Shown: one piece after another, positions 14,552 to 57,140 of the stretch
Layout: each line of letters opens with the position of its first letter
How positions within the stretch are numbered: position 1 is the stretch's first letter
Assembly (NCBI GenBank): GCA_030065635.1
Contig: JASJDJ010000031.1
Span: forward strand, 1 to 58,178
DNA: 58,178 nt
From: Xenococcaceae cyanobacterium MO_188.B32
GTDB lineage: Bacteria; Cyanobacteriota; Cyanobacteriia; Cyanobacteriales; Xenococcaceae
Direction of reading: 5' to 3'
Program-made: the position numbers and the translations under genes
The notes under the pieces: model-generated
The model's database searches: none
Seen by the model: the letters and a program-made list of their open reading frames with translations, nothing else
What the model was told of the DNA's origin: nothing

Positions 14552-15115
14552 ATGGTTCAAATTCCCAGCCAACTTCTAACCCTCGATGAATTTCTCAAAT
14601 TGCCAGAAACCAAACCTGCTAGCGAGTTCATCGATGGTCAAATTATTCAGAAACCCATGCCCCAAGGAAAACACAGCACGGTTCAAAGCGATCTTGTCGC
14701 AGCCATCAACACCCTTCTTAAACCTCAACATATTGCCCGTGCCTATTCTGAACTGCGTTGCACCTTTGGGGGCAGATCGATTATCCCCGATGTCACTGTC
14801 TTTATCTGGGAGCGTATCCCCCGCGACGAGAACGGCAAAGTTACCAACACCTTTACATTGGCTCCTGACTGGACGATTGAAATCCTCTCCCCCAATCAAA
14901 ATCAAACCAAAGTCGTCCGTAACATCCTCCACTGCCTCGCCCACGGTACTCAGATGGGCTGGTCGATCGACCCAGAAGAAGAACTGATCTTTGTTTATTT
15001 TGCCGATCGCACCCTCGCCATGTTTGAAGAAGTTAGCGCTCGCCTCCCCGTCCCCCCTTTTGCTGAAGCTTTCAGCCTCACTGTAGGTGAACTGTTTAGT
15101 TGGCTGAGGGAATAG
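14552..15115 (+). CDS. Uma2 family (DUF820) putative endonuclease
   Basis: 187 residues of the Uma2/DUF820 family, which has a PD-(D/E)XK nuclease fold. Seen: LTLDEFLKLPETKPASEFIDG, IIPDVTVF (Asp), DWTIEILSP (Glu) and the downstream basic region NQTKV. These genes are very numerous in cyanobacteria, and their role is not established. The gene is inserted between the two xanthine dehydrogenase subunit genes on the opposite strand. A structured element begins 9 bases after its stop codon. Confidence 0.85.
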   Translation: MVQIPSQLLTLDEFLKLPETKPASEFIDGQIIQKPMPQGKHSTVQSDLVAAINTLLKPQHIARAYSELRCTFGGRSIIPDVTVFIWERIPRDENGKVTNTFTLAPDWTIEILSPNQNQTKVVRNILHCLAHGTQMGWSIDPEEELIFVYFADRTLAMFEEVSARLPVPPFAEAFSLTVGELFSWLRE

Positions 15116-15124
15116 AACGAGTGA

Positions 15125-15439
15125 CTTCTCCCGACACTCATCCTATCAGATAGAGTGCGGGCTTCATCCCTCGCGAGATGAACCTTACTGCCCCAAGCCT
15201 CTTATCTAGATTATTGATTAGCTCAATAATCCCCGATAGATCGACTATTTGACAGTCAATTTCTTTCCCCGATAGACCATCGGTACTAACGTATTCGAGA
15301 ATACTAATACTCCTAATTACGTTTGGAATTTTACCAGCAGAACTACTCTGCTGAACCCATTTCCAAGTTTTCTAGGTGCTAATTGTATCAACTTACAGCA
15401 ATTTATAGCTAGATTTCAGATACATTAGTATTGTACAAC
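15125..15439 (+). mobile_element. HEARO/omega-RNA-like structured element, copy 1
   Basis: A 315-base non-coding element that is homologous over its length to 56615-56974. It begins directly after GTGA (15121-15124) with a hairpin. It shares the blocks CTCTTATCTAGAT, GGAATTTTACC, TCTAGGTGC and TTACAGCAATTT with copy 2. The terminal stem here is TGTATC/GATACA (15384-15389 with 15419-15424); copy 2 has different bases that still pair. Published HEARO elements are reported to insert after ATGA or GTGA, which fits. Alternatively the minus strand could be read as a TnpB-type right end (reRNA). No ORF is inside. Confidence 0.6.
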
Positions 15440-15609
15440 ACCCAAAACTATTGATATATAAAGATTTGATCGACATCAATCCAACTGTTTATTCCCAGTG
15501 CCAGCCTGACCTCTCATCCCGACGTTCGCCACTACATCCTTGGTGGCAGAACGCGGGACTTCTTAGTCGGAAGGTTAAATCGTTTAGATGAAGCAAGAGA
15601 GAGATCGGG

Positions 15610-38297: not shown

Positions 38298-38630
38298 TTA
38301 ACTTGGCGGTGTGGGAGGCTGTGGACGCTCTTGTTTTTGAATATATTCAACAATCACTCCAAATTCTGCCCCACGCGAAACAGATTTCAAGCCATAACTA
38401 CTAGACCAAAAATAAGGTTTCCAAAAGTATTTACTTAAATAATCTGAATATTCTTTTCTAATTAATCTAGAGCTTACTGTCTTTAAGTTAGCAATTAATT
38501 GAGATAAATTGAGCGATGGATGAGCCTCAAATAAGAGGTGGATGTGGTCTGTCTCCCCAGAAAACTCAATCATACTGCATCGCCATTTGCTTAGTGTATC
38601 TCTAAAGATAGATTCCATTCTTTGGAGCAT
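38298..38630 (-). pseudogene. tnpA: IS200/IS605 TnpA (Y1 transposase), 5'-truncated
   Basis: 110 residues matching the C-terminal three quarters of Y1 HUH transposases. The HUH motif is GETDHIHLLFEAHPS, with LSQLIANLKTVSSRLIRKEY, FWKPYFWSSSYG and the catalytic Tyr region VIVEYIQKQ. The usual first 25-30 residues (HxVYxxxYHLVFxTKYR type) are missing, so the protein is probably inactive. An imperfect palindrome, CTCCTAAAT/ATTTAGGAG, lies just upstream at about 38648-38675. Confidence 0.75.
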
Positions 38631-38684
38631 TGGTTCTTTGAGCCACTCTCCTAAATCCGCTTCGCTAAATTTAGGAGATTCAGG

Positions 38685-51047: not shown

Positions 51048-51201
51048 CCTCGTGAACATGGGTGCAAGCCCCGACGGACGGCTGAAATGTTTGAGGTTTC
51101 CTCAAACATCGCGTCCTTCCCTAAAGGGCGACCTCAAAACTTCACAAATTAGATACAGAATCTTTAATTAGTATAGCTTTTAGCCATTGTAAAATAGTTG
51201 C

Positions 51202-52398
51202 ATGAAAGCTAGATACAACTACCGCATTTATCCGAGATCTTCTCAAATTGAACCCTTAGCCAAAGCTTTTGGGTGCGCCAGAGTCGTGTGGAACGATGCA
51301 TTATGGGTGTATCAAAAAGCTAATAAAGAAGGGCTACCAATGCCCAAAGATGTAGATAAACAAGTTATTACTCAAGCCAAAAAAACACCAGATAGAGCTT
51401 GGTTATCTGAAGTATCTAATATTGTTTTGCAGCAGTCTTTTAGAGATTTGCAAACAGCTTGGAACAATTATTTTTCTAGCCTCAAAGGAAAAAGAAAAGG
51501 AAAAACTGTAGGGAAACCTAAGTTTAAAAAGAAACAATCTAGACAAGCAATTAGGTTTAGAAAAGGTGGTTTTAAGGTTCATTCTCAATCAGTAAAACTT
51601 GCCAAAATTGGTCATGTGCCAATGGTGGTATCTCGACCTTTACCTAGTGAACCATCAAGTGTAACTATTATCAAAGATTGCTCTGGGAGATACTTTGCTT
51701 CTTTTGTAGTGGAAGTTGCTCAACCAATTCCTCCAGCAACTGATAACAGTATTGGAATAGACTTGGGATTAACTCATTTTGCTATTTTAAGTTCGGGAGA
51801 AAAAATTGAGAATCCAAGGCTACATAAAAAGATGCTGCGGAAAATCAAAAAAGCCAATAGAAGATTATCTAAGGCAAAAAAAGATTCTAACCGTAGAAAA
51901 AGGCGTAAGCTAAAACTGGCTAAACTTCATGCCAAGGTCAAAGACCAAAGAACAGATTTTCTTCATAAGTTAACTACTCGCTTGGTGCGTGAAAACCAAA
52001 CGCTGGCAGTAGAAAACTTAAACGTAGCTGGTTTAATCAAAAACCGTAAATTGAGTCGTGGGATAGCTGATGCTGGATGGGCTAAATTCAAGACCATGTT
52101 AGCTGCTAAGTGCGATAAATACGGTCGAAACCTAGCCATAGTAGATAGATGGTTTGCCAGTTCCCAAATCTGCTCTTGTTGTGGGCAGTCTGGAGGCAAA
52201 AAGGAATTAGATGTTCGTGAATGGGAATGCTTGTTTTGCAATACTATCCACGACAGAGACGTTAACGCAGCTATCAATCTCAGAGACGCGGGTGGGCTAT
52301 CCGAGTCTTTAAACGGACGTGGGAGCAAGTGTAAGACTACAGTAGTAGCAGTTTGTGATGAGCCGTCAACCACCTATGAGCAACTTAGTTTGTTCTAG
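51202..52398 (+). CDS. tnpB: TnpB RNA-guided nuclease
   Basis: A 398-residue full-length TnpB. The helix-turn-helix-like N-terminus (YRIYPRSSQIEPLAKAFGCARVVWN) is followed by RuvC-I Asp187 (SIGIDLGLTHFAIL), RuvC-II Glu271 (LAVENLNVAG), a zinc finger (CSCCGQ and CLFC) and RuvC-III DRDVNAAINL (351-360). TnpB cuts DNA next to its TAM, guided by the reRNA from the right end of the IS, and so helps retain the element at the donor site. All catalytic and zinc residues are present. A lysine-rich loop follows the Asp. Confidence 0.95.
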   Translation: MKARYNYRIYPRSSQIEPLAKAFGCARVVWNDALWVYQKANKEGLPMPKDVDKQVITQAKKTPDRAWLSEVSNIVLQQSFRDLQTAWNNYFSSLKGKRKGKTVGKPKFKKKQSRQAIRFRKGGFKVHSQSVKLAKIGHVPMVVSRPLPSEPSSVTIIKDCSGRYFASFVVEVAQPIPPATDNSIGIDLGLTHFAILSSGEKIENPRLHKKMLRKIKKANRRLSKAKKDSNRRKRRKLKLAKLHAKVKDQRTDFLHKLTTRLVRENQTLAVENLNVAGLIKNRKLSRGIADAGWAKFKTMLAAKCDKYGRNLAIVDRWFASSQICSCCGQSGGKKELDVREWECLFCNTIHDRDVNAAINLRDAGGLSESLNGRGSKCKTTVVAVCDEPSTTYEQLSLF

Positions 52399-54536: not shown

Positions 54537-56614
54537 ATGACCAACAAAAAGAATTTAATCGTAGTGGGTAACGGTATGGTTGGTCATAAATTTCTAGAGT
54601 TGATGGTACAAAAAGATGTATCTCAGCAGTGGAATTTAGTTACCTTCTGCGAAGAACCCCGCGTAGCATACGATCGCGTTAACCTAAGTGGTTACTTTTC
54701 AGGCAAAACAGCAGCAGACTTAACTCTGGTTGAACCTGGGTATTATCAAGAAAATAATATTCAAATTCATATCGGCGATCGAGTTGTGGCGATCGACAGG
54801 GATAATAAAAAGGTGCGATCGGCTAATGGTGTGGAAATTGCTTATGACAAACTTGTCTTAGCTACAGGTTCGTCATTAACGAAGACTGTCTTACTAGCGA
54901 TCCTGATATATATGCGCTCGGCGAATGCGCTCTTTATAATAATCGCATCTTTGGTTTAGTTGCCCCTGGTTACACTATGGCAGAAGTAGCCAGCGACAAG
55001 CTAACTCAAGCAGGAGAGCAAACCTTTACTGGGGCAGATATGTCTACTAAACTCAAACTATTGGGAGTAGACGTGGCTAGTTTTGGAGATAACTTTGGTA
55101 GAACTCCTGGGGCAAAAGAATTAGCCTTTACCAATGCGATCGATGGTACTTATAAAAAGCTGGTAGTATCTAAAGATGGCAAGCTATTACTCGGTGGTAT
55201 TTTAATTGGCGATGCTTCGGCTTACGGTAATCTCCTGCAACTGGTACAGAATCGAATTACCCTCCCTCCCCACCCAGAGGATTTATTAGTTCCCCCTAGA
55301 GAAGGTGCAGCAGTACCTATGTTGGGTGTAGATAGTTTACCCGATACTGCCCAGATTTGTTCTTGTAACAACGTTTCTAAAGCCGAGCTCTGTACGGCGA
55401 TCGCTGATGGTGTAACAGATATTGGCGCACTCAAGAAATGTACTAAAGCGGGAACAGGTTGTGGTGGCTGTGTTCCTTTAGTTACCGACATTCTCAAAAC
55501 CGAACTCAAAAAAGCAGGGGTGGAAGTTAAAAACCATGTCTGCGAACACTTTGCTTATTCCCGTCAGGAACTATATCATCTGATCAGAGTTAACGAAATT
55601 AAAACCTTTGCTGATTTAATTAAACAATACGGCAAAGGTATGGGTTGTGAAATTTGTAAACCTGCCGTAGCCTCCATTTTAGCTTCTACCTGGAACGAAC
55701 ATATCTTAGAAACTCCTCATGTCGGGTTGCAAGATACTAACGATTACTACCTGGCAAATATCCAAAAAGATGGTACTTATTCGGTAATTCCCCGTGTACC
55801 AGGAGGTGAAATTACTCCCGAAAAACTAATTGTCTTGGGAGAAGTTGCTAAAGAATTTGGACTCTACACCAAAATTACTGGCGCACAACGAGTAGATTTA
55901 TTTGGTGCAAGGGTAGAACAATTACCAGCTATCTGGAAACTTCTAGTAGATGCTGGCTTTGAATCTGGTCATGCTTACGGTAAAGCTCTGCGTACGGTAA
56001 AATCTTGTGTGGGTAGTACTTGGTGTCGCTATGGGGTAGATGATTCGACTGGTTTAGCCATTGAACTAGAACAAAGATATCGAGGTTTGCGATCGCCACA
56101 CAAACTAAAATCTGCCGTATCTGGTTGTACCCGCGAATGTGCCGAGGCACAGGGTAAAGACTTTGGTATCATTGCCACGGAAAATGGCTGGAATCTATAT
56201 GTCTGTGGTAATGGTGGGATGAATCCCCGTCACGCGGTATTGCTCGCTACAGATATCGATAAGGAAACTCTGATTAAATACATAGACCGTTTCTTGATGT
56301 TCTATATCCGCACTGCTGATAAACTTCAGCGTACTTCTGTTTGGTTTAGCAAGCTGGAAGGTGGTTTAGATTATCTCAAGAGTGTAATTATCGATGATTC
56401 TCTGGGTATCTGTGATGAATTAGAGGAGCAAATGCAGCATTTAGTTGACACCTATCAGTGTGAATGGAAAGCCACCCTAGAAGATGAATCAAAACTACAA
56501 CGTTTCCGTCACTTCGTTAATAGCGATCGCCCAGATCCAACTCTAACTTATGTAGAAGAAAGGGGACAAAAACGCCCTGCTACACAAGCAGAAAAAGCCA
56601 GTCTAACAATGTGA
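54537..56614 (+). pseudogene. nirB: NAD(P)H nitrite reductase large subunit with internal deletion
   Basis: The first 113 or so codons (LIVVGNGMVGHKFLE, then YDRVNLSGYFSG and LVLATGSS) are the FAD-binding start of NirB. About 54879 the sequence jumps to INEDCLTSDPDIYALGECALYNN in another frame, which continues to 56614. That part holds ICSCNNVSKAEL and GCGGCVPLV (BFD-type [2Fe-2S]), the siroheme half-domain with CVGSTWCRYG, and the CTRECAEAQGKD and CGNGG cysteines. About 160 residues of the FAD/NAD domain are missing and the frame is broken. Relatives have about 830-850 residues. The stop TGA is part of the GTGA before the structured element. Confidence 0.85.
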
Positions 56615-56974
56615 CATCCTCCTGCGATAAATCGCAGGCTTCCTTACCTCGCGATAAGGCATTTCTACCCCACGCCTTTTATCTAGATACACAGCAGCTA
56701 CTATGTACCCCCGACAGATCGACTTGACAGACGATTTCTTTCCCTCAGAGTCCCTGAGTACTAGCGTATTAGAAATACTTATACATCTAATTGCGCTTGG
56801 AATTTTACCGATACAACCGCCGACCCTGCCCGAATTCAATTCGGGCAGGAAAGCGGCGGTGCATTCCGCACTTTTGTATCGAACCCCATATTCCAAATTG
56901 TCTAGGTGCGTTACTTTGTACGAGGTTACAGCAATTTCTAGCTAGATTTTACGTACAAAAGTATTATATAACGC
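56615..56974 (+). mobile_element. HEARO/omega-RNA-like structured element, copy 2
   Basis: A 360-base homologue of 15125-15439. It starts right after GTGA (56611-56614), whose TGA is the nirB stop. Its opening hairpin is CCTGCGATAAATCGCAGG. Its terminal stem TTTGTACG/CGTACAAA (56915-56922 with 56952-56959) encloses the conserved loop TTACAGCAATTTCTAGCTAG. The central stem GATACAA/TTGTATC replaces CAGCAGA/TCTGCTG of copy 1 and carries extra nested stems (CCGCCG, CTGCCCGAATT). No ORF of note is inside. The orientation is tentative, and the minus strand could instead be a TnpB-type right end. Confidence 0.6.
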
Positions 56975-57039
56975 TTAGAATCATTGCTATATGAAGATTT
57001 TGTATCAGGAGTGTAAACCCATGACCGATTATTTATCAT

Positions 57040-57090
57040 GTTCGCTCTCATCCCCCCGATAAATCGGGGGACTTTTCGCTCACGGAGTTA
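57040..57090 (+). mobile_element. Possible hairpin relic of the same element class
   Basis: CTCATCC followed by CCCCGATAAATCGGGG and CTTTTCGCTCACGGAG resembles the opening hairpin-then-CTT pattern of the structured elements (CATCC, stem, CTT). It is not preceded by GTGA and the rest is absent. It sits in the leader of nirD. Confidence 0.3.
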
Positions 57091-57140
57091 AATTGTAGGG
57101 GCAAGGTAATGTCTTGCCCACAGAGGAGTAATAAATCAAA

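Follow-up and report, generated by a model that had tools for sequence, protein, structure and literature searches.

What maintains two structured elements that lie far apart on one cyanobacterial contig, and on which strand should they be read? The question is raised by positions 15125-15439 and 56615-56974 of the window, by which we mean the whole stretch of 58,178 nucleotides from Xenococcaceae cyanobacterium MO_188.B32 that was analysed. An initial annotation took them for homologues with compensatory base changes, saw in them HEARO RNAs (the omega-RNAs of IscB) starting after GTGA, and considered a regulatory role. Here, we show that the two stretches are parts of two homologous structured elements with compensatory changes, hereafter E1 and E2. 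Read in the opposite direction, they apparently are dispersed, protein-less transposable elements of the IS200/IS605 type.

The fold and its strand

E1 and E2 are 72% identical over 293 aligned letters. The stems already singled out can be read in both: the shared 3' stem (P1) is GTATC/GATAC in E1 and GTACG/CGTAC in E2, and the central stem is CAGCAGA/TCTGCTG in the former and GATACAA/TTGTATC in the latter. Further copies were taken from 31 regions at first, and then from more. RNAalifold on a plain MAFFT alignment of 19 copies, E1 included, picked for having few insertions, gave 62 pairs, 36 of them with changes on both sides. The covariance model built from this alignment was used to align a larger set, made of 43 matches scoring 172 bits or more, taken from 42 chosen sources in 8 genomes, i.e. 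42 distinct rows with E1 and E2 among them. Of 2545 cells, 96.1% pair, and 43 of the 62 pairs show changes on both sides, in an alignment fitted to the model, for which the 19-copy count (36/62) is the more neutral figure. The covariation score is 0.491, compared with 0.196 +/- 0.007 in shuffled alignments, none of which reached it in 500 trials, and with at most 0.093 when partners are slid. The homology with compensatory changes proposed from two sequences, and the selection on RNA structure read from it, are thus borne out over 42 copies.

Pairwise identity among the aligned copies has a median of 70%. Keeping 96% of the pairing at such divergence is not explained by selection on the ends only; a whole fold kept in this way is what one expects if the RNA, and not just the DNA ends, sustains the element. 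G-U pairs occupy 377 cells and A-C pairs 15 (109 and 5 in the 5' domain alone). This excess places the RNA on the minus strand and indicates selection on RNA rather than on single-stranded DNA alone. Selection thus acts on the RNA fold of both halves of the molecule. The predicted fold of the E1 RNA has -97.8 kcal/mol (z -4.83), that of its complement -74.3 (z -4.10). Rfam gave no match at E<=5 on 15000-15600 or 56500-57140, and Rfam 15 none at gathering score on 8 loci with copies of the types A, B and C described below.

A TnpB guide-RNA core and a second RNA domain

The full-RNA profile (305 nt) meets tnpB-bearing copies only from about 140 to 305. We scanned 31 tnpB-bearing loci with the covariance model. 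In these elements, aligned by fitting to the model, helices 6-11 covary and have 93-100% of their cells paired per helix; the match at L285 is limited to 180-247, and L278 is truncated on the 3' side. The core overlaps the 3' end of tnpB in these relatives. Helices 4-5 have no letters in 30 of the 31, the exception (L144) being coding sequence of the TnpB zinc ribbon forced into the model, and helices 1-3 give weak fits. Hence, the 3' half of the RNA (about 155 nt) is a TnpB omega/reRNA core. The 5' half (about 145 nt) occupies the place of tnpB and forms an RNA domain of its own, which covaries and is missing from the 31 tnpB-bearing elements. No homology of this domain to tnpB coding sequence was found when the 305-nt profile was compared with tnpB-bearing copies. 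Outside the 31 were the duplicates L268 and L283, C11 (L046) and C268 (L055), both with the core, and L275, L277 and L281. Matches to the core are weak (30 bits) in L281 and in L275, beside its TnpB; L277, whose match to tnpB does not include the C-terminal part, has no core match. The tnpB-less RNAs have a longer helix 9 than the tnpB-borne cores, and the two kinds of core may therefore not be fully interchangeable.

E1 and E2 belong to type A, with 42 copies. In three tnpB-less copies of type B (C140, C210a, C185) the plan of P2 and P3 looks the same by eye. The seven of type C carry another 5' domain on the same core, with 27 pairs, 6 of them with changes on both sides; they are L041 (core damaged), L050, L236, L237, L244, L252 and L275, and the type also occurs in other cyanobacterial families. 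A pattern search for type C with 2 mismatches gave 33 of 243 genomes, many of these hits probably being due to chance.

The tnpB-bearing relatives also set the direction of the element. At L040, L046 and L055 the 5' block of the element as first delimited overlies the 3' end of a TnpB open reading frame (ORF) on the opposite strand. The element had therefore been read backwards: what was taken for its left border is where an IS200/IS605-type element has its right end. The GTGA thought to precede it lies inside it, as the complement of the right-end TCAC, and the guide would follow the RNA on its 3' side. The span 15125-15439 covers a part only, since the element continues for another 135 bp to a left-end hairpin and TTTAA. 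Along the minus strand, the order is TTTAA, the left-end hairpin (with a box GAAGT, GAATT or similar), an AT-rich block with a TATAAT-like box, the RNA of about 300 nt, GTCAC and the flank. The last helix of the RNA is the right-end hairpin, and past GTCAC the flanking DNA differs from copy to copy. The features of E1 are:

15121-15574, minus strand: element E1, tnpB-less, IS200/IS605-type; left end 15574, right end 15121, with borders after TTTAA and after GTCAC, supported by the empty sites of two sister copies
15575-15579, minus strand: target or transposon-adjacent motif TTTAA, just outside the left end
15514-15565, minus strand: left-end hairpin with the guide box GAAGT at its foot, the final T of which corresponds to the final A of TTTAA (from sequence and from covariation of target base and guide box)
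15430-15480, minus strand: promoter-like left-end block, conserved in copies, with -10-like TACAAT at 15430-15435 and no -35 seen
15118-15432, minus strand: structured RNA, covariance-model match 1-304 at 289.5 bits, E1 being among the 19 model-building sequences
15287-15425, minus strand: 5' RNA domain, helices 1-5, in place of tnpB; P1 arms 15419-15423 and 15385-15389
15121-15286, minus strand: omega/reRNA core, helices 6-11, ending at the right-end GTCAC
15101-15120, minus strand: expected guide, i.e. flanking DNA directly 3' of the right end, from geometry and the guide rule in the parts of PMC8612924 and PMC10711439 used here

Those of its sister are:

56611-57087, minus strand: element E2
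57088-57092, minus strand: TTTAA target motif outside the left end
56963-56968, minus strand: -10-like TATAAT; a full sigma70 promoter was not found
56608-56965, minus strand: structured RNA, covariance-model match 1-304 at 307.9 bits, E2 being outside the model-building set
56762-56958, minus strand: 5' RNA domain, with a palindromic insert in the P3 loop
56611-56761, minus strand: omega/reRNA core
56591-56610, minus strand: expected guide, from geometry, antisense to the end of ORF 54977-56614

There is no ORF of at least 80 aa in E1, and two (97 and 80 aa) overlap E2; in a sample of copies, ORFs on the RNA strand reach a maximum length of 24 to 101 aa, depending on the copy. The terminal GTGA of E2 (56611-56614) supplies the TGA stop of ORF 54977-56614, which by its sequence we take to be nitrite-reductase-like.

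One might still suppose, as was done initially, that E1 and E2 are plus-strand IscB omega-RNAs of the HEARO kind (RF02033), lying after GTGA and served by the IscB-like ORF at 751-2025. This reading draws on an IscB-like ORF and a true HEARO in the same window, and GTGA does precede the plus-strand start. HEARO is also, like the elements studied here, the mobile guide RNA of a system related to IS200/IS605, and HEARO copies without a nuclease ORF are known. Yet, the Rfam search, HEARO model included, has no match at E<=5 on either element, the balance of G-U and A-C puts the RNA on the minus strand, thus in the opposite orientation and with the guide at the other end, and the core is found at the 3' ends of tnpB and not before iscB. 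We therefore reject the HEARO identity, which seems next to impossible. The only gathering match in the window is the true HEARO at 493-730 (113 bits), which serves as a control for the negative results on E1 and E2. It is followed by the IscB-like ORF and by hairpin-like sequence, the whole, at 493-2110, probably being a separate and complete IscB element. On the plus strand, neither E1 nor E2 adjoins the start of an ORF as long as iscB. The idea of a guide-RNA element lacking a nuclease gene and plausibly served in trans holds for E1 and E2, but with a TnpB reRNA core the nuclease would not be IscB.

Ends, insertion sites and dispersal

In its own genome E2 matches 53 places, many of which are pieces of one copy. 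We searched for empty sites with 7 of 36 built junctions (joined flanks) against 27 genomes of the family, checking L171 and L193 at the level of the base. Matches crossing the junction were found elsewhere for L171, L193 and L034, and for L161 by 18 letters only; the junctions of L182, L204 and L205 had no crossing match in the 27 family genomes. The L171 site is empty in G004, and that of L193 in G026, G018 and a G006 paralogue. In these empty sites TTTAA runs directly into the sequence flanking the right end, with no duplication and no loss. Two sister copies were thus inserted precisely 3' of TTTAA without target duplication, and for E1 and E2 themselves the same is indicated by matching boundaries. 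The L193 site is also continuous in G008 and G009, but with CTTGA and CTTAA instead of TTTAA, and for the L171 site the alignment of G007 has a 9-letter gap beside the motif. Around E2, the aligned blocks are 32 bp apart in G022, which lacks the element, and 524 bp apart here, the junction not being defined to the base; G013 matches in a different arrangement.

At the left end, TTAA was found by script in 35 of 42 type-A copies, with scripts that sought TTA-like motifs and hence lean that way. The other left ends are TTAC in L196, without flank in L169, doubtful in L173 and L158, not found in L194, and TTTAA by eye only in L206 and L177. The final bases of target motif and guide box covary: an A in the former goes with a T in the latter, a G with a C, and a T with an A in one clear and one ambiguous case. 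A guide-box pattern matched 27 of the 42 type-A copies (25 A-T, L196 C-T, L169 T-T) and missed 15. Outside type A, the pair is A-T in L039, L050, L038, L032, L243 and L249, and G-C in L049, L037:4519, L053, C71, C59 and the tnpA locus L219, with a second, less likely reading besides G-C in L219 and C59. It is T-A in L058, and ambiguous in L041, L042, L054, L059 and L036. The matches at L140 and L246 are probably not at the real left end, and none was found at L037:9937, L045, L138, L240, L239, L238, L247, L245 and L251. In IS608 and ISDra2, the TnpA of the IS200/IS605 family reads its ends through such pairing of target and guide box. The subterminal hairpin with a guide box complementary to the cleavage site, typical of this family, is thus seen here by base covariation, with exceptions, the pairing model itself being taken from general background.

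A similar left end adjoins a Y1 TnpA gene at C120. The left-end block contains a -10-like box, with no -35. The window also holds a TnpB gene of another group:

51135-52398, plus strand: TnpB gene (ORF 51202-52398), outside the clade of core-bearing TnpBs, with an upstream block 51135-51217 that resembles the elements' left-end block

This upstream block matches the elements' left-end block weakly (26.6 bits), and left ends may be common to different TnpB groups. The right end of this TnpB element is unmatched by the core profile. Within the same match the P1 loop has some likeness to the start of tnpB; this likeness is weak, and we do not take it as evidence that the 5' domain originated as fossil coding sequence.

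In lacking a protein gene, and in having a left-end block in common with tnpB and tnpA neighbours and a right end in common with tnpB elements, E1 and E2 resemble the PATEs or MITEs of IS605, which have IS605 ends without full genes. They might then be such elements and nothing else, in which only the DNA ends matter, as substrates of TnpA, and the RNA in the interior is a functionless fossil of tnpB. Both ends do show TnpA-type features, and there is a published precedent: the part of PMC7290912 that we draw on describes a PATE-like element of Halanaerobium hydrogeniformans that retains its right end together with the terminal 58 nt of tnpB. However, covariation extends over the whole of the approximately 300 nt and takes in the 5' domain, for which no homology to tnpB was detected. 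The interior has been conserved as RNA at a median identity of 70%, and the G-U bias speaks for selection on RNA, not on single-stranded DNA alone. We consider the ends-only reading improbable.

It could also be that the RNA has been domesticated and, together with TnpB in active or dead form, controls genes next to it or antisense to it, e.g. the ORF ending at 56614. E2 abuts the 3' end of ORF 54977-56614 and its expected guide is antisense to that ORF. This is at odds with the variety of the listed copies, which differ in their flanks and hence in their guides, and with the sites empty in relatives. The regulatory role once read from the position 3' of genes finds no support in these dispersed insertions with different flanks, and domestication seems very improbable to us as an alternative to a dispersed mobile element.

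Searching cyanobacterial genomes with a covariance model, as the initial annotation had proposed, revealed further homologues with paired substitutions. Among 291 genomes of the order, at least 134 have a match at E<=1e-4, and ten of the weaker ones that we inspected are tnpB-borne cores. Matches of at least 190 bits, i.e. with the full 5' domain and the core, occur in at least 10 of the 291 genomes, nine of the own family and one other. Up to 6 candidates per genome were scored in this survey, under stricter filters, and absences are accordingly soft. An exact-pattern scan (20 stretches) named carriers among Xenococcaceae, Prochloraceae and Pleurocapsales; Pleurocapsales cyanobacterium LEGE 06147 has the element at locus L172.

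Proteins that may act in trans

E1 and E2 contain no Y1 TnpA. Its sole match in the window (38331-38645, minus strand, 96.8 bits) lies outside both, and 21 are found in the genome; the elements thus are non-autonomous derivatives. TnpB has 57 matches to its C-terminal domain (PF07282) in the genome, 54 of them over the curated cut-off. The 3' ends of eight TnpB loci of this genome, several of these loci being truncated, carry the same core; the window ORF 51202-52398 is not among the matches at E<=1e-60 in this genome. At this threshold TnpB is found in 14 of 14 genomes searched, which had been picked since tnpB-less copies were seen there. The four clade TnpBs of this genome that we tested have the HTH_OrfB, OrfB_IS605 and TNB domains. 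That of C233 matches solved TnpB chains (8bf8, E 6e-25, a structure of ISDra2 TnpB). The D/E/D motifs of RuvC are seen in the TnpBs of C36, C71 and C59, as well as in C233; the motif pattern missed one or two of them in the TnpBs of G020 and G001.

We think it likely that E1 and E2 are mobile, tnpB-less guide-RNA elements that TnpB and TnpA serve in trans; the fold and the insertions are observed, and transcription, binding by TnpB and cleavage are inferred from these. Transcription would proceed from the left-end block past the right end and into the flank, giving the RNA a 3' guide identical to the sequence that TTTAA precedes in the empty site. TnpB made by related elements would bind this RNA in trans and cut the empty site, so that repair would copy the element back. 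TnpA, also in trans, would move it. The 5' domain might give protection, aid folding or make the RNA a better competitor for TnpB. The geometry of E1 and E2 agrees with the layout of guide and target in ISDra2 and IS200/605. In ISDra2, the flank beyond the right end provides the final ~16 nt of the reRNA, and cleavage by TnpB takes place beside the left-end motif (PMC8612924); in IS200/605, the guide begins with the nucleotide that flanks the element on the right (PMC10711439).

Some observations count against service in trans by TnpB and TnpA. There are copies with truncations or interruptions, and no sigma70 promoter was found in a scan of E2 only. G002 has two TnpB matches, both of them fragments, and the top match in G005 shares 47% identity with the query. 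C71 and C59, the TnpBs of this genome with a clear left end, have TTTAG, compared with the TTTAA of E1 and E2; tnpB elements of the TTTAA type are found in other genomes (L243, L249). These last observations bear on whether the RNA serves another nuclease than this tnpB clade, such as a distant TnpB or a Cas12-like protein fitted to the 5' domain. The different target motif of the two TnpBs of this genome, the presence in G002 of nothing but fragments of clade TnpBs, and the absence of the 5' domain and of the longer helix 9 from the cores of the 31 tnpB-bearing elements are in favour of such a nuclease. But the core is clearly of this clade, which has matches in each of the 14 genomes searched, and we regard another nuclease as unlikely. 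The TnpBs of related elements thus are our preferred partners.

How new are such elements? Non-autonomous IS605 elements and TnpB omega-RNAs are known; the part that would be new is an added 5' RNA domain on a copy without tnpB. Compared with the omega/reRNA of ISDra2-type elements, as given in the part of PMC8612924 consulted, E1 and E2 have the same core ending at the right end and overlapping the 3' end of tnpB in relatives, the guide at the flank and the target motif at the left end, but they lack tnpB and their RNA has about 300 rather than about 150 nt, owing to the extra covarying domain. In the portions of the literature that were searched we found no tnpB-less omega-RNA with an added 5' domain, which is no proof of its absence in print. 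There is a general analogy with Cas12 systems. Their tracrRNA is a structured RNA separated from its nuclease gene, whereas in E1 and E2 core and guide would be one molecule.

One may go further and suggest that these are proteinless elements encoding a dedicated long guide RNA, in which tnpB was replaced by a 5' RNA domain that evolved to make the RNA an efficient parasite of the TnpB of other elements. At least two unrelated-looking 5' domains (A/B and C) stand on the same core, so the replacement may have recurred in cyanobacteria. We offer this proposal tentatively, as a possibility towards which we do not quite lean. If true, RNA-guided retention would be a public good exploited by protein-less elements, and guide RNA and nuclease would have been separated inside a transposon family, as they were on the way to CRISPR-Cas12. 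Action of TnpB in trans and the benefit of the added 5' domain become testable, and there would be natural long omega-RNA scaffolds for TnpB. The covariance model is itself of use, since it finds omega-RNA cores, E1, E2 and 8 scanned loci being without Rfam match.

Small, mostly palindromic inserts are found between or inside the RNA stems of E2 (56820-56880 of the window) and of L031, L032, L034, L154, L158 and L173. They look like other hairpin-repeat families, and the fold survives their presence.
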